Of a DNA stretch of 64,000 nucleotides, positions 11,373 to 48,364 are shown one piece after another. Source of the stretch: Desulfovibrio sp. JY (GTDB taxonomy: Bacteria; Desulfobacterota; Desulfovibrionia; Desulfovibrionales; Desulfovibrionaceae); contig CP082962.1 in assembly GCA_021730285.1 (NCBI GenBank), positions 3,605,501-3,669,500 on the forward strand. The letters are read 5' to 3'. The notes beneath the pieces are model-generated. The model ran no database searches, was not told the DNA's origin, and was given only the letters and a program-made list of their open reading frames with translations. Each line of letters begins with the position of its first letter. Within the stretch, counting starts at the first letter, position 1. Position numbers and translations under genes: made by a program.

Positions 11373-15575
<4,203 letters not shown>

Positions 15576-22847: not shown

Positions 22848-22941
22848 GGAAGCGTTTCGTCACCGGTGTGGCGCCTGGACTTCAAATCCAGTGTGCGGTC
22901 GAGAGGTCGCAGGTAGGTTCGACTCCTATACGCTTCCGCCA
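22848..22941 (+). tRNA. selC: tRNA-Sec (anticodon TCA)
   Basis: The 94-nt gene has an 8-bp acceptor stem (GGAAGCGT with ACGCTTCC), an anticodon loop CTTCAAA with anticodon TCA at 22882-22884, a long variable arm and an encoded CCA end. The long acceptor stem and variable arm are characteristic of selenocysteine tRNA. So the organism should read UGA as selenocysteine in some proteins. It is also the integration site of the island that follows. Confidence 0.95.
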
Positions 22942-22943
22942 TC
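22917..22943 (+). other. Putative attL: 3' end of selC
   Basis: The 27 bases consist of GTTCGACTCCT, four bases ATAC and GCTTCCGCCATC. They recur at 32151-32177 with only the central four bases changed. The integrase gene starts about 100 bases away. Integration at the 3' end of a tRNA gene is typical for tyrosine-integrase islands. Confidence 0.75.
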
Positions 22944-23049: not shown

Positions 23050-24114
23050 ATGGCTACATTTCGCAAGCGTGGAAACCTCCAGTGGGAGGCCCGGATTCGC
23101 AAGTGCGGCTATCCCACGACGTGCAAGACCTTTGGCACCAAGGCCGAGGCCGAGCAGTGGGCAAAAGGCGTTGAAACCGAAATGTCCAAGGGGCAATTCG
23201 TCTCGACCAAAGCGGCCGAGGGCTACACCCTGGCCGAATGTCTCGACCGATACAAAGAAGAGTACCTGCCACGGCTCAAAAATCCGCAAAGCGAGATATA
23301 CCGGGCTGACCGTCTCAAAAGACGTGCCCTGGGCCTTCGGATCATGGCGACGATCCGCTCTACAGATATTGCGGATTATCGGCGCGAACGGGAAACAGAA
23401 GGTGTTTCGGCCAACACGATCCGTTTGGAGCTGGCGCTACTTTCGCGTCTTTTCAACTTCGCCAAAAGCGATTGGGGCATGGAAAGCCTGACCAATCCCG
23501 TGCAACTTGCTGCCAAGCCAAAATTGCCGTCTTTGCGAGAAAGACGACTTGAACAAGGGGAAGAAGAAAAGCTTTTTGAAGCTATTGGCAATGACTTTGA
23601 ATTTTCTGCAATAATAAAAATCGCTTTGGAAACGGCCCTTCGCCGAAGTGAAATCGTCAGTCTTACGTGGAAAGATGTTGACTTGCGTAATAAGACCGTA
23701 TTGTTGCAAGATACAAAGAATGGAACATGTCGCACAGTCCCCTTGTCAAAAAAAGCTCTTGAGGTGTTTCAAGGACTCCATAGGCATATTTCAGGAAAGG
23801 TTTTTCCGAGTTGTACTGTCCCGCAGTCGCTTTCAAAAAAGATGGCAAAAGCCTGTCAAAGGGCCGGGCTGGCGGACCTTCGCTTTCATGATTTGCGCCA
23901 TGAAGCCACCAGTCGTTTTTTTGAGCATACCGACCTGGATGTGATGGAAATCAAGGCCATTACCGGGCATAAGTCCTTGCAAATGCTGGCGCGATATACG
24001 CATTTGCGAACAGCAAGCCTCGCGGCGCGCCTGGACGGGGCGAAGCGGGGAGAACTCAGGCCTGTACAGGACCAACGCGAACCCGACAGACATACCGGTA
24101 TGATGCAATACTGA
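23050..24114 (+). CDS. Tyrosine recombinase / phage-type integrase
   Basis: 354 residues from the ATG at 23050 with GAGAGGTGGAG upstream (a TTG at 23017 is a weaker option). N-terminal SAM-like core-binding domain followed by the catalytic domain with the Arg in TALRRSEIVSL, HDLRHEATSR, TGHKSLQML and the nucleophilic Tyr in ARYTHL. All active-site residues appear present, so it may be functional. It lies directly downstream of selC. Base composition is less GC-rich than the neighbours, notably around 23540-23840, in line with transfer. It probably integrates the island ending near 32177. Confidence 0.95.
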   Translation: MATFRKRGNLQWEARIRKCGYPTTCKTFGTKAEAEQWAKGVETEMSKGQFVSTKAAEGYTLAECLDRYKEEYLPRLKNPQSEIYRADRLKRRALGLRIMATIRSTDIADYRRERETEGVSANTIRLELALLSRLFNFAKSDWGMESLTNPVQLAAKPKLPSLRERRLEQGEEEKLFEAIGNDFEFSAIIKIALETALRRSEIVSLTWKDVDLRNKTVLLQDTKNGTCRTVPLSKKALEVFQGLHRHISGKVFPSCTVPQSLSKKMAKACQRAGLADLRFHDLRHEATSRFFEHTDLDVMEIKAITGHKSLQMLARYTHLRTASLAARLDGAKRGELRPVQDQREPDRHTGMMQY

Positions 24115-24134: not shown

Positions 24135-25760
24135 ATGGCCACACTGGGGTTCGGCAACATCAGGAAGCTCCTTTTGGAGATGGCTCAGCACCATTGCGTG
24201 GAGGAGGTGCTGCATCTCGCCGTGGAAACGTTGGCGGATATGGCAAATGTCGCCCTGGTCCGGGTCTGGCTCATCGAAGCAGGCGACCGCTGTGTTGCCT
24301 GCGCGCACAACGCGCAATGCCGCGACAAAGGCCATTGTCTGCATCTCAAGGCCAGTTCTGGCAGATCTATCCTCTCCGGCGGTAAGGCCTGGGGGGAGAT
24401 CAAAGGCTCTGCTTTCAGCCGCTTTCCCATCGGCATCCGCAAGGTCGGGCAAATCGCCCAAACGGGAAGACCGCTCGAAATCTCGGAGATCAATGCCAAC
24501 GAGCAATGGCTGGCCGATCCGGCCTGGGCCCGTCGGGAAACGATCAAGGGGTTTGCCGGACAGCCGCTCATCTGCCGTGACGAAGTGCTCGGGGTGTTAT
24601 CTGTCTTCACGCGGGTGGTTCTGGAGCAGGACACCCTCGACATGCTGCGCATGGTGGCCGACCATCTGGCCTACGCCATCGCCAACGCCAGGGCGTTCGA
24701 ACTGGTCGACCAGCTCAAGCAGCAAGTCGAACTGGAAAATGCCTACCTGCGGGAAGAAATCAACGAAGTTCAGGCGTTCAAAGGCATTATCGGACAGACC
24801 GAGGGCATCGAGCACATCCGCAAGCTCATCCGCATGGTCGGTCCCACCGACGCCAACGTGCTCATTTACGGCGAGTCCGGCACAGGCAAGGAAATGATCG
24901 CCCGCGAGATACACAATTGCAGCGGGCGCCACGACAAGCCGATGATCAAGATCAACTGTTCCGCCATTCCCCGGGAACTGTTCGAAAGCGAATTCTTCGG
25001 CCACGCCCGCGGTGCCTTCACCGGGGCCGTCAAAAATCGCATGGGATACTTCCAGGCGGCCGATGGCGGCACCTTGTTCCTCGACGAGGTGGGCGAAATT
25101 CCGGTCTATCTGCAAAGCAAGCTGTTGCGCGTGCTCCAGGAGGGCGAGTACCAGCGGGTCGGCGAGGATGCCGTCCGTAAAGTCAATGTCCGGATCATTG
25201 CGGCAACCAACCGCGATTTGCAGGCGGAAATCCAAACCGGGCAGTTCCGCGAGGACCTCTATTATCGGTTGCAGGTGTTTCCCGTGACGGTGCCGAGCCT
25301 GCGCGAACGCAAAAAAGACATTCCGCTGCTTGCCGCGCACTTCATCGACCTGTGCAGCCAAAAGATGAACCGGCCGTGCCCGCGACTCTCCGAAGGGCAA
25401 CGCCAGCGCCTCGTTGCGTATGACTGGCCGGGGAACATCCGCGAACTTCAAAACATCGTGGAACGCATCGTCATCACGGCCCAGCCGGATCAGGTTCTGC
25501 TCGAACTCGACCGCTCTCCTGCGGCCGTCTGCGAAGAACTGGCGGACCCACCGGCCATGATCCTGCCCAAACGCGTGCTCACGGAACAGGAACTGCGCGA
25601 TCTGGAAAAAAGCAACATGCAGGAAGCCCTGCGCCAAATGAACTGGCGCATCTACGGACCGCGCGGCGCCGCGAAACTGCTCGGCATCAACCCGACGACC
25701 CTCATTTCCCGCTTGAAGAAACTCGGCATCTACGTCTCCCGGGTGCAACCGCAAGAGTAG
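24135..25760 (+). CDS. GAF-domain sigma-54-dependent activator with Cys cluster
   Basis: 541 residues. N-terminal GAF domain (about 1-190) containing four cysteines in C-X2-C-X5-C-X5-C spacing (CVACAHNAQCRDKGHC, near residue 56), AAA+ domain with GESGTGKE, the GAFTGA sigma-54 loop and DEVGE, and a C-terminal Fis-type helix-turn-helix ending near NPTTLISRLKKLG. There is no receiver domain, so it is ligand- or redox-controlled rather than phosphorylated. The Cys set could hold a metal or Fe-S cluster. Two sigma-54-type promoters lie in the same island ahead of lrgA and dsrA; these are its probable targets. Start at ATG 24135; TTG 24117 is the alternative. Confidence 0.9.
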   Translation: MATLGFGNIRKLLLEMAQHHCVEEVLHLAVETLADMANVALVRVWLIEAGDRCVACAHNAQCRDKGHCLHLKASSGRSILSGGKAWGEIKGSAFSRFPIGIRKVGQIAQTGRPLEISEINANEQWLADPAWARRETIKGFAGQPLICRDEVLGVLSVFTRVVLEQDTLDMLRMVADHLAYAIANARAFELVDQLKQQVELENAYLREEINEVQAFKGIIGQTEGIEHIRKLIRMVGPTDANVLIYGESGTGKEMIAREIHNCSGRHDKPMIKINCSAIPRELFESEFFGHARGAFTGAVKNRMGYFQAADGGTLFLDEVGEIPVYLQSKLLRVLQEGEYQRVGEDAVRKVNVRIIAATNRDLQAEIQTGQFREDLYYRLQVFPVTVPSLRERKKDIPLLAAHFIDLCSQKMNRPCPRLSEGQRQRLVAYDWPGNIRELQNIVERIVITAQPDQVLLELDRSPAAVCEELADPPAMILPKRVLTEQELRDLEKSNMQEALRQMNWRIYGPRGAAKLLGINPTTLISRLKKLGIYVSRVQPQE

Positions 25761-25863: not shown

Positions 25864-26814
25864 ATGTTGTACAAAAAAATGGAATGCCTTGTCATACTTT
25901 TTGTTATGGCAATAGTCTTTGTTGCCGAATACTTCCACATACACGATGTTATTTTTCCTGAAATAGCCGCCTTGGCATTCGGGGCATGGGTCCTGGAAAC
26001 GCGTCCCTGGCCCGGTCCGGTGTGGACAATATGGTTCTCGCCAACGCTTGGTGCGATTACTGGCGTTGCGATCTTGTATTTTGTACCCTATACATTCACA
26101 ATAATGGCGTTTATCGCCTTGATCTTCGTCTTAATCGAGCTCAAAATTGCACGATCCTCCATCTCACCTTCCATTTCGGCGGCCATTTTGCCAATGCTTA
26201 TCAATGCCAAAGGGTTGGTGTATCCTGTCGCTGTTTGTTTGACTACCGGAACTGTCGCATTGATCGCCGCGCATAGAGAAAAACAGCATATCCAGGTCGA
26301 AAGGCCATCTTGTGACAACAACGGCGAAACTGTTGCAAACAGTGACAGACTGACAAAGAAGTGCTTCCATTATAGCAAGATATTCCTGGCAGTCTTGGCC
26401 ATTACCTTGCTTGCCGACAAAACGAACGTTCTTTATATCGTCTCACCACCATTGATCGTGGTCTTTTTCGAGCTGGCGCATCCCCAAAGCGTTTTCCCCA
26501 AAGACGCCTCTAAAAAACTCTTCTTCATGCTGACCTGTTGTGCTTTGGAGGGCATGTTTTGGGTAGCGTTGGTTGTCGAGTTTTGTTCGGGGCCACGTTG
26601 GATTGCGGCGGGGCTCTCCATGGCAACGGCACTCTCCTTGTCGCGCCTCTTTCGTTTGGCGCCGCCACCAGCCTTTGCCTTGGCACTGTTGCCTCTTATT
26701 CTTCCGTCTCAAAAGCTCTACAGCTACCCGGCAAGCGTGGTTGTCGGCGCATTTCTTTTTATCGTGTTCGCAAGGTTTTTGTTCGACAAGAAAAGCATTC
26801 CGTTGCTCCCATGA
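25864..26814 (+). CDS. Multi-pass membrane protein of unknown function
   Basis: 316 residues from the ATG at 25864 (GAGAG upstream). About ten hydrophobic helices in two halves, separated by a polar stretch around residues 140-165. The first half contains IFPEIAALAFGAW and SPSISAAILPMLI, which look conserved in character but do not let me name a family. The composition is clearly more AT-rich than the neighbours, a sign of foreign origin. It follows the sigma-54 activator by 103 bases on the same strand and may share its transcript. A transporter or membrane sensor is possible. Confidence 0.75.
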   Translation: MLYKKMECLVILFVMAIVFVAEYFHIHDVIFPEIAALAFGAWVLETRPWPGPVWTIWFSPTLGAITGVAILYFVPYTFTIMAFIALIFVLIELKIARSSISPSISAAILPMLINAKGLVYPVAVCLTTGTVALIAAHREKQHIQVERPSCDNNGETVANSDRLTKKCFHYSKIFLAVLAITLLADKTNVLYIVSPPLIVVFFELAHPQSVFPKDASKKLFFMLTCCALEGMFWVALVVEFCSGPRWIAAGLSMATALSLSRLFRLAPPPAFALALLPLILPSQKLYSYPASVVVGAFLFIVFARFLFDKKSIPLLP

Positions 26815-26962: not shown

Positions 26963-27658
26963 TTACACCACGCCCAAAAGCCAGACGCCCAACGGTGCGA
27001 AGGCCGCCGTAAGCATGCCGGCCAGAATCATGGCCAGTCCGGCCATGGCCCCCTGCTGCTCGCCCTCCAGCAGGGCCGTGGCCGTTCCCTGGGCGTGGGA
27101 TGTTGTCCCCAGGGCCAATCCCCGGGCCACGGGGTGCGTGATGCCCACGCGGGTCAGCAGCCAGCCGCCGAGCAGGGACCCCAAGGTTCCCGTGGCAACG
27201 ACAAAGGCCGCGCTCAGTGCCGGAATCCCCTTATAAATGCGCGCGATCTCCACGGCGAAGGGGATGGAAACGCCCTTGGGCAAAATGGAGACGACCACCG
27301 CCTGCGGCAGCCCGCCGACCTTGGCCGCATATCCGGCCGAAAGCATGGCCAGAAGCGATCCGGCCGCGACACTGGTCAGGATGGCCGGGCCATAGACGTA
27401 CAAGAGCCGGCGATGCCGGTACAGCGGTACGGCCAAGGCGACCGTCGCCGGCCCCAAGAGCATCGTCATGGCGTCCTTGGCCGGCACATAGGCCGCGTAC
27501 GGGATGTCGCAGGCGACAAGCAGGCCGATGATCACGCCGGCGCTCAGGGCCACGACGTTGAGCAGCGGATGGTTGAAACGGAGGGAAAGGCGCCGGATAC
27601 CCAGATACACGAGCACGGTACCGGCACTGTACCCGAGCAGGGAGAGGAGGTCCTGCAT
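26963..27658 (-). CDS. lrgB: LrgB/CidB family membrane protein
   Basis: 231 residues with about 6-7 membrane helices. Family-typical motifs are LLGPATVALAVPLYRHR, LPKGVSIPFAVEIA and GLALGTTSHAQGTATAL. The ATG at 27658 overlaps the lrgA stop by one base (TGATG), so the pair is coupled. LrgAB/CidAB proteins were first described as holin-like; several relatives transport pyruvate (Bacillus PftAB) or glycolate (plant PLGG1). In this lactate-using bacterium a three-carbon acid transporter is a reasonable inference. Confidence 0.92.
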   Translation of the reverse strand: MQDLLSLLGYSAGTVLVYLGIRRLSLRFNHPLLNVVALSAGVIIGLLVACDIPYAAYVPAKDAMTMLLGPATVALAVPLYRHRRLLYVYGPAILTSVAAGSLLAMLSAGYAAKVGGLPQAVVVSILPKGVSIPFAVEIARIYKGIPALSAAFVVATGTLGSLLGGWLLTRVGITHPVARGLALGTTSHAQGTATALLEGEQQGAMAGLAMILAGMLTAAFAPLGVWLLGVV

Positions 27659-28056
27659 CAACGTTTCCTGTGCAGCAAAAGTGTCACGAAGCCGACCGAC
27701 AGCAGCGGCAAAAGCGAACTGATCAGGATGGCTGCGAAAAGCACCATTCCGTAATGGCTGAAGACTTCTCCCCATTCCATGAGGCCGACGGCAATAGGGA
27801 TGAAAAAAAACACCAGGTGGCGCAAGAGAAAATCCGCTGTCCGCTCCACCTGCTCAAGCCTGATCACCCCGAGACACAGCAGGCTGAAAAGGACAAGCAC
27901 GCCGAGGACGTTGCCCGGCAGCGGCCAGTGGGCCCAGCCCACGAACCGGTTGCAGCCCCAGGATATCCCCCACAGGATCGCCAATTGTCCAAGGCAGCGC
28001 AGGATATTCGCTCCGTAGCGCCTGGGCCCCGATCCCGGCTGTTTTTCGCTTTCCAA
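27658..28056 (-). CDS. lrgA: LrgA/CidA family membrane protein
   Basis: 132 residues if started at the TTG at 28056, which has AAGGGG at proper spacing and gives the usual family length. An ATG at 28152 in the same frame lies upstream of the predicted sigma-54 transcript start and is therefore unlikely. Four hydrophobic helices; family features WPLPGNVLGVLVLF and FFIPIAVGLMEW. Partner of LrgB. It is transcribed away from dsrAB from its own -24/-12 promoter. Confidence 0.85.
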   Translation of the reverse strand: MESEKQPGSGPRRYGANILRCLGQLAILWGISWGCNRFVGWAHWPLPGNVLGVLVLFSLLCLGVIRLEQVERTADFLLRHLVFFFIPIAVGLMEWGEVFSHYGMVLFAAILISSLLPLLSVGFVTLLLHRKR

Positions 28057-28159
28057 AACATCCCCTTTTCGCGTTTGCCCCAATGACCGTGCAAACGCCT
28101 TGTCCGATACGCAACCACGCACCGGTTGACAATGGCTGCGGGCACAGGGCATTGGCGTT

Positions 28160-28174
28160 GCAATAGCCGAGCCA
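28160..28174 (-). promoter_or_regulatory. Sigma-54 promoter of lrgAB
   Basis: On the minus strand the bases are TGGCTC-GGCTA-TTGC, one mismatch from the -24/-12 consensus. The start would fall near 28148, leaving a leader of about 90 bases to the lrgA TTG. Confidence 0.75.
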
Positions 28175-28282
28175 GGCGCCTTGGTCGTTGCACCGGCGGC
28201 CTCGGCGCGGCCGACAGACGGGGGCCTGTGCTGCCCATGCCCCCGTCCCCAGAAGCGGTCCCTGCGGGCAAGCGCTGGAGTG

Positions 28283-28338
28283 ACAATGAAAGTTCGTTTA
28301 TAATGGTTTTATTCTATTATAAACAATGAATTTTCGTT
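28283..28338. promoter_or_regulatory. Operator-like repeats between lrgA and dsrA, putative enhancer
   Basis: ACAATGAAAGTTCGTT (28283-28298) and ACAATGAATTTTCGTT (28323-28338) are direct repeats exactly 40 bases apart; each is itself an imperfect palindrome AAYGAA-NN-TTCRTT. Between them GTTTATAAT (28296-28304) and ATTATAAAC (28316-28324) form a 9-bp inverted repeat. The block lies about 110 bases from the lrgA promoter and 125-180 bases from the dsrA promoter, the normal range for sigma-54 enhancer sites. A TATAAT at 28299-28304 lacks a good -35 box. Confidence 0.6.
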
Positions 28339-28461
28339 GTTTTCTTTTTTCCAACGCCCGTTCCTCCCTTCTTTTTGTGTGTATGCACTTGTGGTGTTGT
28401 CGTCGTAATATCATAAATTCATTTACTTTTTAGGACATGCTTTGGCCTAAGGCACAGACTG

Positions 28462-28476
28462 CGGCACTATCCTTGC
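28462..28476 (+). promoter_or_regulatory. Sigma-54 promoter of dsrAB
   Basis: CGGCAC-TATCC-TTGC followed by T differs from the -24/-12 consensus only at the first base. The predicted start near 28488 leaves a leader of about 155 bases. An alternative sigma-70-like pair (TTGTGG at 28389, CATAAA at 28412, 17 bases apart) is weaker. The remaining leader shows no obvious structure. Confidence 0.75.
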
Positions 28477-28643
28477 TTTGCCGCCGGGGAACATCTGGCT
28501 GGGCTCTGCCCGTTCGGCTGCCGTTCCCAAGTCTTGCCCGCATCCGGATTGCGGCGGCAACCCTGGCTGCGCGCAACGAACCCCACAGGCCTGTCCCAGT
28601 CGCGATATGCGCAACCACTCGCCAATGCGAAAGGAGAACGCCC

Positions 28644-29957
28644 ATGGCAAAACACCAGACTCCGCTGCTCGATCAGCTCGAAAGCGGGCCCTGGCCCAGC
28701 TTTGTGTCCGACATCAAGCAGGAAGCGGCCCGACGCGCCGCCAACCCTGACGGCATCGAATTCCAGATTCCCGCGCAATGCGCCGACGACCTGCTCGGCG
28801 TCCTGGAACTTTCCTTCAAGGATAAGGAGACCCACTGGAAACATGGCGGCATTGTCGGCGTCTTCGGCTACGGCGGCGGCGTCATCGGTCGCTACTGCGA
28901 CCAGCCCGAACAATTCCCGGGCGTGGCCCACTTCCACACCGTCCGTGTGAACCAGCCCTCCGGCAAGTACTACACCACGGAATACTTGCGCGGCGTCATG
29001 GATATCTGGGACATGCGCGGTTCGGGCCTGACCAACATGCACGGCTCCACTGGTGACATCGTACTGCTCGGCACCACGACGCCGCAGCTCGAAGAAGTCT
29101 ATCACGACCTGTCGCACAAGATGCGCACCGACCTCGGCGGTTCCGGCGGCAACCTGCGTACCCCGGCCGACTGCCTGGGCCAGTCCCGCTGCGAATTCGC
29201 CTGCTACGACACCCAGGACGTGTGCCACACCCTGACCAACGACTACCAGGACGAGTTGCACCGCCCGGCCTTTCCTTACAAGTTCAAGTTCAAGTTCGAC
29301 GGCTGCCCCAACGGCTGCGTCTGCTCCATCGCCCGTTCCGACTTCTCGGTCATCGGCACCTGGAAAGACGACATCCGCATCGATCAGGACCGCGTGCGCG
29401 CCTATGTGGCCGGCGAGTTCAAGCCCGGCGGCGGCTCCCACAGCAGCCGCGACTGGGGCGCCTTCGACGTGGTCAAGGAAGTCGTGGACCGTTGTCCCAC
29501 CAAGTGCATGCGCTACGACGGCGTCACGCTCGCCATCGACAACAGCAACTGCACCCGTTGCATGCACTGCATCAACACCATGCCGGCAGCGCTTAAGATC
29601 GGCAAGGAAACCGGGGCGTCCATCCTGCTTGGCGCCAAGGCCCCGATCCTGGACGGCGCGCAAATGTCCTCCCTGCTCGTGCCCTTCATCGTGGTGGAAA
29701 AGCCCTATGATGAGATCAAGGAAGTCATTGAGAACATCTGGGACTGGTGGATGGAAGAAGGCAAGAACCGCGAGCGCGTGGGCGAGACCATGAAACGTCT
29801 CTCCTTCCAGCGCCTGCTCGAAGTCACCAAAATCAAGGCCATGCCGCAGCACGTCAAAGAGCCGCGTTCCAACCCGTACATCTTCTTCCGGGAAGAGGAA
29901 GTGCCCGGCGGCTTTGCCCACGACGAAGCGGCCTATCGCCAGAGACACATGAGATAA
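28644..29957 (+). CDS. dsrA: Dissimilatory (bi)sulfite reductase alpha subunit
   Basis: 437 residues, the same length as D. vulgaris DsrA. With DsrB it forms the cytoplasmic alpha2beta2 enzyme reducing sulfite with siroheme-[4Fe-4S] centres. The cofactor cysteines are at canonical places: Cys177 and Cys183 (CLGQSRC), Cys221 and Cys225 (CPNGC). The inserted ferredoxin domain has Cys284, Cys288, Cys303, Cys306 and Cys309. AAGGAGAACG precedes the ATG; the frame is open further upstream but without a ribosome site. It appears intact and Desulfovibrio-like. Unusual are its place in an integrase-bearing island and its -24/-12 promoter. dsrB follows after 16 bases. Confidence 0.97.
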
Positions 29958-29973
29958 AGGGGGGAGTATACAG

Positions 29974-31137
29974 ATGGCGTTTATTTCTTCCGGGTACAAT
30001 CCCGCCAAGCCCATGGATGGCCGGATCACGGATATCGGTCCTCGGCATTTCGAAGAATTCTATCCGCCGGTTATCAAAAAGAACAAAGGCCAGTGGGACT
30101 ACCACGAGATCGTCAAGCCCGGCGTGCTCAAGCACGTAGGACTCTCCGGCGACGTGGTCTACACCGTACGCGCCGGCGGCGCCCGCCTCATGAGCGTCAC
30201 CCACGTCCGCGAGATCTGCGAGATCGCCGACAAGCACTGCGGCGGCCACCTGCGCTTCACCACGCGTAACAACGTGGAATTCATGGTCGATAACGAAGCC
30301 TCTCTGGATGCACTCATCGCCGACCTCGAGTCCCGCAAGTTCGCCGGCGGCAGCTACAAGTTCCCCATCGGCGGCACCGGCGCCTGCGTGTCCAACATCG
30401 TCCATACCCAGGGCTATGTGCACTGCCACACCCCGGCCACCGACGCCTCCGGCCCGGTCAAGGCCGTCATGGACGAGATGTTCGAGTACTTCCAGTCCAT
30501 GACCCTGCCGGCCATGGTCCGCATCTCGCTGGCCTGCTGCCTGAACATGTGCGGCGCCGTGCACTGCTCCGACATCGGCATCGTCGGCATCCACCGCAAG
30601 CCGCCCATCGTCGAGCACGACCGTCTGGACAACATCTGCGAAATCCCCCTGGCAGTCTCCGCCTGTCCCACCGGCGCCATCAAGCCGACCAAGGTGGAGA
30701 TCGACGGCAAGAAGGTCAACTCCGTCGCGGTCAACGCCTCGCGCTGCATGTACTGCGGCAACTGCTACACCATGTGCCCGGCCATGCCGCTCGCTTCCGG
30801 CGAGGGCGACGGCATCGTGCTCATGGTCGGCGGCAAGGTGTCCAACCGCATCTCCATGCCCAAGTTCTCCAAGGTCGTTGTGGCCTACATCCCCAACGAG
30901 CCGCCGCGCTGGCCGACGCTGACCAAGATGATCAAGCACATCGTCGAGGTCTACGCCGCCAATGCCATGAAATATGAGCGGTTAGGTGAATGGGCCGAGC
31001 GCATCGGCTGGGAAAAGTTCTTCGAGATGTGTGATCTTGAGTTCACCCACCACTGCATCGATGACTTCCGTGATCCGGCCTACTACACGTGGCGCCAGAG
31101 CACGCAGTTCAAGTTCACCAAGCACGTCGAGGCCTGA
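29974..31137 (+). CDS. dsrB: Dissimilatory (bi)sulfite reductase beta subunit
   Basis: 387 residues. Catalytic siroheme-cluster cysteines Cys151 (GYVHCHTPA), Cys188, Cys189 and Cys193 (LACCLNMCG) are at the expected positions. The ferredoxin domain carries Cys231 (SACPTGA), Cys258, Cys261, Cys264 and Cys268 ([11 protein letters not shown]). GGGGGAG lies before the ATG. It forms the active enzyme with DsrA. In sulfate reducers dsrD normally follows dsrB; here a hairpin, a terminator and a methyltransferase gene follow and no DsrD-sized reading frame is present. No frameshift or missing residue is visible. Confidence 0.97.
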
Positions 31138-31379: not shown

Positions 31380-32126
31380 GTGGACATCCCACGGATATTC
31401 ACCATCACTGAAAGTGCTCACCGCATCCACAACCCGTTCACATCAGAAAAGCTTACCACTCTCGGCGCGGCGCTGCGTCTGGAACCGGGGACCCGGGTGC
31501 TCGACCTCGGCAGCGGTTCGGGGGAGATGCTGTGCACCTGGGCCCGCGATTACGGCGTCATCGGCACCGGCATCGACATGAGCCCGTTGTTCACCGAGCA
31601 AGCCAAACGCCGTGCCGGAGAACTCGGCGTCGCCGATCACGTCACGTTCATCCACGGCGATGCTGCCGGCTATGTCTCTGAGGAGAAGGTGCGTGTGGCA
31701 GCCTGTGTTGGCGCCACGTGGATCGGCGGTGGGGTCGGCGGCACCATCGAGCTTCTGGCGCGAAGCCTTCGCGCCGGAGGGATCATCCTTGTTGGTGAAC
31801 CCTTTTGGCGTCGGTTGCCGCCGACGGAAGATGTCGCCAAGGGGTGTCTTGCGGGCGCAATCTCCGACTTTCTCATGCTTCCGGAACTTCTCTCGTCTTT
31901 CGGCCACCTTGGCTACGACGTCGTGGAAATGGTTCTGGCTGACCAGGACGGCTGGGACAGATACGAGGCGGCCAAATGGCTCACCATGCGCCGATGGCTT
32001 GAGGCCAATCCCGGCGACGAATTCGCGAAAGAGGTTCGAGCCCAATTGACCTCGGAACCCGTGCGCTACGCCACGTACACACGTGAGTACCTGGGCTGGG
32101 GTGTGTTCGCGCTGATGGCGCGCTGA
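31380..32126 (+). CDS. Class I SAM-dependent methyltransferase
   Basis: 248 residues, started at the GTG at 31380, which has CAGGAG about ten bases upstream. The Rossmann motif I is VLDLGSGSGEML near residue 40, with an acidic residue in GTGIDMSP (motif II) and FIHGDAAGY (motif III). No substrate-specific domain is visible. It lies after the dsrAB terminator and is the last gene before the putative attR, so it belongs to the island. A methyl acceptor cannot be named; small-molecule methylation is the common role of this fold. Confidence 0.85.
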   Translation: MDIPRIFTITESAHRIHNPFTSEKLTTLGAALRLEPGTRVLDLGSGSGEMLCTWARDYGVIGTGIDMSPLFTEQAKRRAGELGVADHVTFIHGDAAGYVSEEKVRVAACVGATWIGGGVGGTIELLARSLRAGGIILVGEPFWRRLPPTEDVAKGCLAGAISDFLMLPELLSSFGHLGYDVVEMVLADQDGWDRYEAAKWLTMRRWLEANPGDEFAKEVRAQLTSEPVRYATYTREYLGWGVFALMAR

Positions 32127-32142
32127 TACCGCAGTGATGCGT

Positions 32143-32174
32143 TGGCGGAAGTTCGACTCCTCCAGGCTTCCGCC
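32143..32174 (+). terminator. Hairpin after the methyltransferase gene, overlapping attR
   Basis: GGCGGAAG (32143-32150) pairs with CTTCCGCC (32167-32174), and TTTTTCTCTTTTTC follows from about 32183. It could end the methyltransferase transcript. The right arm is part of the tRNA-like repeat. Confidence 0.5.
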
Positions 32175-32177
32175 ATC
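32151..32177 (+). other. Putative attR: degenerate copy of the selC 3' end
   Basis: GTTCGACTCCT, four bases CCAG, then GCTTCCGCCATC: 23 of 27 bases equal the tRNA-Sec 3' end at 22917-22943. No complete tRNA is present here. The fragment marks the right boundary of the island. The four changed bases may reflect the displaced original tRNA end or later drift. Confidence 0.65.
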
Positions 32178-48160: not shown

Positions 48161-48364
48161 CCCGCCGCCCGCCCTTGCCAGACGCGACCGGGTGGGGTAA
48201 GCACCGCAGCTGCGGTCGGCAGTTCACCCAGGCGTCGCCGCCCCGTACGGGGAGCTAAACCTGCCATTTCCTTTTTCCGCGCTGACACCTTATCCGTGCC
48301 GCGTCGGAAGCCGGCGACCACCGACATCCTTTTTACGGACAGGCACGCTTGATAAGGATAAGCG

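Follow-up and report, generated by a model that had tools for sequence, protein, structure and literature searches.

On an island inserted at the tRNA-Sec gene of Desulfovibrio sp. JY, an activator-bound enhancer lying between two divergent sigma-54 promoters very probably turns on a spare copy of the sulfite reductase genes dsrAB together with the lrgAB pair. This reading is drawn from the sequence of a 64,000-nucleotide stretch (contig CP082962.1, positions 3,605,501 to 3,669,500; hereafter the window), whose genus was taken as Solidesulfovibrio, and from comparison with 14 genus and 288 family genomes. Sulfate respiration has DsrAB as its core enzyme and marker, and a genome is commonly credited with a single housekeeping pair of these genes. 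The initial annotation of this DNA overlooked that the dsrAB pair in the window is a second copy: the ordinary dsrAB lies 2.75 Mb away on the same contig, in a genome of one contig and 4.69 Mb, and is without the dyad and -24/-12 sites described below. The predicted switch would thus not control the main sulfite reductase.

The tRNA-Sec island and its second dsrAB

The island comprises an integrase, an activator, a small membrane protein, lrgBA, dsrAB and a methyltransferase (Table 1). Its integrase adjoins tRNA-Sec and a repeat of the tRNA end lies at the far side, the arrangement of a tRNA-integrated island; no other 27-mer in the whole window, on either strand, matches the left repeat at 19 or more of its 27 positions. 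In G005, another genome of the genus, the MCP gene and tRNA-Sec of the window recur and the tRNA-Sec end is repeated twice more behind them: the first repeat precedes an integrase with 94% identity to that of the window, and the second precedes, by about 0.3 kb, the gene that follows the window island (617 aa, 91.5%). A relative (72%) of the gene behind the window island also has tRNA-Sec and an MCP gene within about 3 kb in G012. Taken together, the tRNA-end repeats and the arrangement in these two genomes place the island between the tRNA and position 32177, a length of about 9.3 kb. G005 itself carries two tandem islands at tRNA-Sec (L119-L121; G005:C1:137645, 189107 and 204499), the second opened by the 94% integrase, and its one dsrA is on a contig other than that of the tRNA-Sec islands. 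Transfer RNA genes also occur near a second dsrAB or activator at L025:12849-12925, L026:13184-13259, L056:9409-9484 and L058:9447-9523. Elsewhere in the window, an Rfam COG3860 RNA motif (76 bits) is found at 48213-48266.

Table 1. Features of the island and of the region between lrgAB and dsrAB (window positions)
Feature	Position	Strand	Basis or remark
tRNA-Sec, island integration site	22848..22941	+	ARAGORN, Rfam RF01852
Left attachment-like repeat (tRNA-Sec 3' end)	22917..22943	+	24/27 identical to 32151-32177
Tyrosine integrase	23050..24114	+	Pfam PF00589, 103.4 bits
GAF-AAA-Fis sigma-54 activator	24135..25760 (open frame from 24117)	+	Pfam GAF, Sigma54_activat, HTH_8
Small membrane protein, HPP transmembrane family (marginal)	25879..26814	+	PF04982, 27.7 bits against a cut-off of 27.2
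lrgB-like	26963..27658	-	PF04172, 212.3 bits
lrgA-like	27658..28056 (TTG start placed; open frame to 28152)	-	PF03788, 86.3 bits
Sigma-54 -24/-12 promoter, lrgAB (predicted)	28160..28174	-	TGGCTCGGCTATTGC; GG-N10-GC; score 16.5, best in window
Putative activator dyad 1, AATGAAAGTTCGTT	28285..28298	.	genome pattern search and dyad matrix
9-bp perfect inverted repeat	28296..28324 (arms 28296-28304/28316-28324)	.	between the dyads
Putative activator dyad 2, AATGAATTTTCGTT	28325..28338	.	genome pattern search and dyad matrix
Sigma-54 -24/-12 promoter, dsrAB (predicted)	28462..28476	+	CGGCACTATCCTTGC; GG-N10-GC; score 14.4, joint second in window
dsrA, second copy	28644..29957	+	437 aa, no internal stop; 90% identical to ordinary copy
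dsrB, second copy	29974..31137	+	387 aa; 95% identical to ordinary copy
Class I SAM methyltransferase	31380..32126	+	PF13649, 39 bits
Right attachment-like repeat, island end	32151..32177	+	24/27 identical to left repeat

The lrg pair is recognised by LrgA and LrgB domains (PF03788, PF04172) in adjoining genes, and relatives of LrgAB/CidAB are known for the transport of small organic acids; three-carbon acids, as proposed initially, may be the cargo of this pair. The second DsrA aligns with 2v4j_A over residues 1-437 and keeps the expected cysteine spacing in its C-X5-C and C-X3-C motifs, which we take to hold the cysteines that bind the siroheme cluster; this spacing and the nearness to Desulfovibrio DsrAB mark the pair as the reductive bacterial type. 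What a second pair adds would appear to be a different regulation or a larger amount of enzyme, not a new reaction. Five linked Solidesulfovibrio DsrA proteins, that is, those encoded with the activator cluster, form one clade (support 100/97), and dN/dS among four of their genes is 0.05-0.12. In the second genus with such linked copies (g18), linked and unlinked DsrA do not form two groups, and the two copies of G056 pair (99/87; one filled to 47%). In G056 the dsrA linked to the activator is split into three overlapping pieces (L058:4259-5567), because the gene is either broken or wrongly sequenced. No dsrD match is present in the window; the gene occurs in g18, in L025 and in the ordinary Solidesulfovibrio loci, five in number, that were searched for it (L022, L030-L033), and fragments of it remain in L024 and L026.

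That the second dsrAB is a decaying passenger, hitch-hiking on a mobile island without a role of its own, is unlikely. The missing or fragmentary dsrD, the three-piece linked dsrA of L058 and the restriction of a cluster-linked second dsrAB to just 5 of the 14 genus genomes speak for decay, yet the window dsrA runs to its full 437 codons with both cysteine motifs, matches 2v4j_A over its whole length and has a dN/dS of 0.11-0.12 against three other linked copies.

The gene behind the integrase encodes, as the initial annotation had claimed, a GAF-type sigma-54 activator of the island's own, with a GAF domain, an AAA+ domain that carries the GAFTGA motif (PF00158, 238 bits) and a Fis-type helix-turn-helix (PF02954, 25.4 bits), the features of a bacterial enhancer-binding protein. 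In an alignment of 12 relatives all 12 share four invariant cysteines, and three of these are kept in 17 of 17 when distant relatives are included. The predicted model of the GAF domain has a mean pLDDT of 82.5, and the domain has weak sequence matches in the PDB, led by DevS GAF chains (E 0.011). By analogy with VnfA (PMC9542535), the domain may carry a metal or an iron-sulfur cluster.

Divergent promoters and the dyads between them

The two -24/-12 promoters that the initial annotation had described as facing away from each other are both present, each with GG-N10-GC inside TGGC...TTGC-like boxes. With a sigma-54 matrix compiled by hand, they rank first (lrgAB) and joint second (dsrAB) among the 38 window sites that score at least 8, the 14.4 of the dsrAB promoter being equalled by a site at 15099. 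When the intergenic stretch is simulated 2000 times with a first-order Markov model, 24 copies contain a plus site scoring 14.4 or more and 6 a minus site scoring 16.4 or more. The genome has a gene for RpoN. The implied +1 of the lrgAB promoter falls at about 28148, downstream of an ATG at 28152 in the lrgA frame, which was therefore rejected as the start; given this promoter position and the AAAAGGGG ahead of it, the TTG at 28056 is the likelier start of lrgA. A CATAAA stretch at 28412 had been named initially as a possible sigma-70 site. A sigma-70 scan of 28040-28660 returned no site, and since shuffled sequences average just 0.4 sites, this result neither establishes nor excludes a sigma-70 start.

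Between the promoters lie two ACAATGAA-NN-TTCGTT blocks (28283-28298 and 28323-28338), exactly 40 bp apart as first reported. The exact pattern AAYGAANNTTCGTT has two matches in the 4.69-Mb genome, both of them the window dyads, and its backward control pattern has one match per strand; because the pattern was derived from these two dyads, the informative part is the closeness of both matches, 40 bp. A further measure comes from a dyad matrix trained on 15 dyads, all from non-dsr promoters of other genomes, with which the window dyads rank first and second in the whole window (19.3 and 16.9 bits; the next site reaches 13.4). One dyad of at least 19.3 bits occurs in 1 of 2000 Markov copies of the intergenic stretch, and a pair in none. 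The dyads stand at -177 and -137 relative to the dsrA -24 box, and no middle dyad is recognisable between them. The 9-bp inverted repeat noted in the initial annotation is also found here and is perfect; it is AT-rich, with its centre about midway between the dyads, at the place where L025 and L026 carry a weak third dyad, and it was not seen by eye in the sequences of L025, L026 and L028.

Conservation of dyads, promoters and clusters in relatives

One argument for a common switch is the co-occurrence of dyad and activator. A dyad precedes dsrA in 7 of 7 copies that have the activator on the same contig (the window, L024, L025, L026, L056, L058 and L081), and in 11 of 11 when four assigned copies are counted (L028, which is joined to the cluster, L083, L084 and G053), as against 0 of 22 other copies. 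The assignment of L083 and L084, across contig ends, preceded their scoring, and that of G053 came after its score had been seen; all three share the protein start MSKFATPQ with L070, the same-contig copy that is also listed as L081. Scored with the non-dsr matrix, the best dyad before each of the 11 linked copies reaches 17.5-24.0 bits (24.0 in the G053 copy), and none of the 22 unlinked copies exceeds 9.8 (6.2 each in the other copies of G091 and G053). Relative to the dsrA -24 box, dyads lie at -183/-163/-142 in L025, at -183/-163/-143 in L026 (the middle ones weak in both) and at -184/-143 in L028. In L024 a pair of dyads with a spacing of 40 bp precedes dsrA, and the spacing before dsrA is 40-41 bp overall. 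Before the MSMEG_0572 gene, dyads stand at about -140/-120/-98, one of the three being unrecognised in L050 and L054.

Four of the five linked Solidesulfovibrio copies have a -24/-12 site upstream of dsrA, between -198 and -179, with scores of 11.9-14.4, and boxes like the dsrAB promoter of the window are found at -181, -198 and -179 in L025, L026 and L028. L024 has just a degenerate GG-N10-GC (CGGTTGTCCCTTTGCT) at -139, 112 bp from the nearer dyad, and two further GG-N10-GC occur in the same 270 bp. Of the 13 ordinary Solidesulfovibrio dsrA promoters, the 12 that were scored reach at most 8.4, and a search for the same sites before ordinary dsrA found none in the 12 Solidesulfovibrio copies scored; the ordinary dsrA of G008 was left out of scoring, its 5' end being cut and the start codon missing. 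The dsrA of G012 (74% identical) was considered as a further member of the unit and rejected, as just 20 bp of its upstream DNA are available and the activator is on another contig, and it is out of the counts. The dsrAB concerned, 74-75% identical to the island copy, comes from a Solidesulfovibrio MAG, where its contig measures 4.5 kb (L027; G012:C69), and may be foreign or contaminating. In g18, an activator relative stands beside a second dsrABD with the same dyad and without lrgAB. A GGC-N9-GA box is conserved before dsrA in 5 of 5 aligned g18 copies, and in the four measured it follows the start of the dyad by 98-101 bp; it is probably, not surely, a sigma-54 site, because its -12 element reads GA.

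The gene clusters around the activator vary. An orthologue (E up to 1e-190) is present in 5 of the 14 genus genomes and 16 of the 288 family genomes, and in four of these five genus genomes (the window's own, G004, G010 and G013) a second dsrAB lies beside it. G012 has an activator and lrgBA cluster, and no dsrAB match was found in the roughly 12.7 kb behind its OsmC gene. The second dsrA of G007 shares a 6.7-kb contig with the remaining cluster genes, to which it is joined; the activator is missing from this contig and gave no match in that genome at E up to 1e-190. A larger form is that of L024 and L025, with an ABC transporter ATPase, the activator, lrgBA and KASIII on the minus side and MSMEG_0572, an amidohydrolase, a radical SAM-GNAT protein and OsmC on the plus side, followed by dsrAB; the L026 cluster is shortened in its middle. 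Since the window island is without KASIII and without these plus-side genes, it is read as a further shortened form, with lrgAB and dsrAB around one enhancer. Outside the genus, G038 (g12), G100 and G101 (g18) and G136 (g21) have the activator with the plus-side genes and a single dsrA, and no lrgAB match beside the activator. Six other g18 genomes combine a 56-57% activator relative with a second dsrA: the two lie on one contig, activator beside dsrAB, in L056, L058 and L081, the activator is beside dsrB at a contig end in L055 and L059, and it is near a contig-end dsrA piece in G053. No lrgAB match was found beside the activator in the g18 loci L055, L056, L058 and L059, nor in any of nine loci of genera other than Solidesulfovibrio. 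G173 (g25) has a 57% activator relative and lacks a dsrA match.

It is improbable that lrgAB alone is sigma-54 controlled, with the -24/-12 box of dsrAB a relic and dsrAB itself read from a sigma-70 site that went unrecognised. The dyads and -24/-12 boxes have been kept before dsrA within otherwise poorly aligning DNA and the dyad also precedes dsrABD in the second genus, which outweighs the degenerate dsrA promoter of L024 and the activator clusters of G038, G100, G101, G136 and G012 without adjoining dsrAB; the CATAAA stretch could serve such a start, but the sigma-70 scan around it was empty, though against a shuffle average of just 0.4.

The distant activator relatives L092-L101 have no dsrAB, lrgAB or MSMEG_0572 matches above 45 bits and were therefore used for the dyad only. 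Among the seven of these loci scanned, a clear dyad triple is present in L092 and L100, directly before the activator gene, and weaker pairs in L093, L096 and L101; L095 and L098 have no dyad clusters. The L092 activator reads as two overlapping pieces. Binding of the dyads by another regulator, with the neighbouring activator acting elsewhere, is very improbable: the binding is predicted and the genome must hold other activators (a query with this one gave 46 first-look candidates, of which 4 were scored), but the dyad accompanies activator relatives in Solidesulfovibrio and in other Desulfovibrionaceae, and its triples stand directly before the activator gene in 2 of the 7 distant loci scanned.

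The predicted switch and its likeness to known systems

The single switch for lrgAB and dsrAB that had been proposed at the outset is thus supported by the co-occurrence of dyad and activator, by the kept -24/-12 boxes and by the presence of RpoN. On this evidence, the activator would sense a signal through its GAF domain with the four conserved cysteines and bind the spaced AACGAA-NN-TTCGTT dyads; DNA looping would bring it to RpoN-RNA polymerase, which would then open the two divergent promoters. In the larger set of relatives, KASIII and lrgAB would be read one way and the plus-side genes the other, followed by dsrAB with dyads and a promoter of its own; the window island would have arisen from such a set by deletion, leaving dsrAB directly opposite lrgAB. 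The likeliest use is a conditional extra sulfite-reducing capacity at times when the transporter-like pair is also needed. The second dsrAB may serve the use of sulfite-releasing organosulfur compounds or stand in for a main enzyme that has been poisoned, for example by cyanide, nitrite or NO, all of which bind sirohaem. Tentatively, and with rather less confidence, the whole could be viewed as a partly mobile sigma-54 regulon under a Cys-GAF activator, in which a spare sulfite reductase, switched on in the manner of alternative nitrogenases, serves as alternative isoenzyme; an LrgAB carrier would be turned on with it, as would a Nit1C-like nitrogen module in relatives, and the spare enzyme would act when the main one is poisoned or when the cell is flooded with sulfite from a specific compound.

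A close parallel in design is VnfA/AnfA of Azotobacter, where, in the parts of the study consulted, a spare metalloenzyme isoenzyme is under its own GAF sigma-54 activator with conserved cysteines (PMC9542535); the enzyme here, however, is a sulfite reductase, and the likeness is one of analogy, not of family placement. The sigma-54 regulons of D. vulgaris Hildenborough likewise involve many activators with sites conserved across the Desulfovibrionales, and the main text of that study contains no occurrence of dsr, lrg, sulfite reductase or sulfite (PMC4641369). Moorella thermoacetica is a cultivated organism with two dsr loci, but its second dsrAB is early-branching and lies beside dsrC and dsrN, and sigma-54 control is not mentioned in the portions consulted (PMC10504309). 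Among the matches listed for open-access PMC literature, titles and abstract openings announce no sigma-54-controlled dsrAB.

Two genera have a second dsrAB with its own predicted activator, and in one genome this copy lies on an integrase island. If the predicted control is true, the copy number, expression and horizontal movement of dsrAB become separable from basic sulfate respiration, and the defined activator, dyad and promoter offer a handle for finding the inducing signal. Two further systems share features with the activator or its clusters. In NCBIfam the activator matches NorR best, with 375.7 bits, which is below the cut-off of 476; NorR uses three spaced enhancer sites, and the window dyad differs from the site known for NorR. 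The clusters of relatives share the MSMEG_0572, MSMEG_0568 radical SAM and MSMEG_0567 GNAT families, which we take to be Nit1C genes, with the Nit1C nitrile/cyanide cluster, but a nitrilase is absent among those L025 proteins that were scanned. An ABC transporter ATPase, the GAF activator, MSMEG_0572, an amidohydrolase, a fused radical SAM-GNAT protein and OsmC form a recurring unit in L024, L025 and L050-L054, which resembles part of Nit1C with an obvious nitrilase absent; a sigma-54-like site precedes MSMEG_0572 in all seven of these loci, and KASIII is present in four of them.
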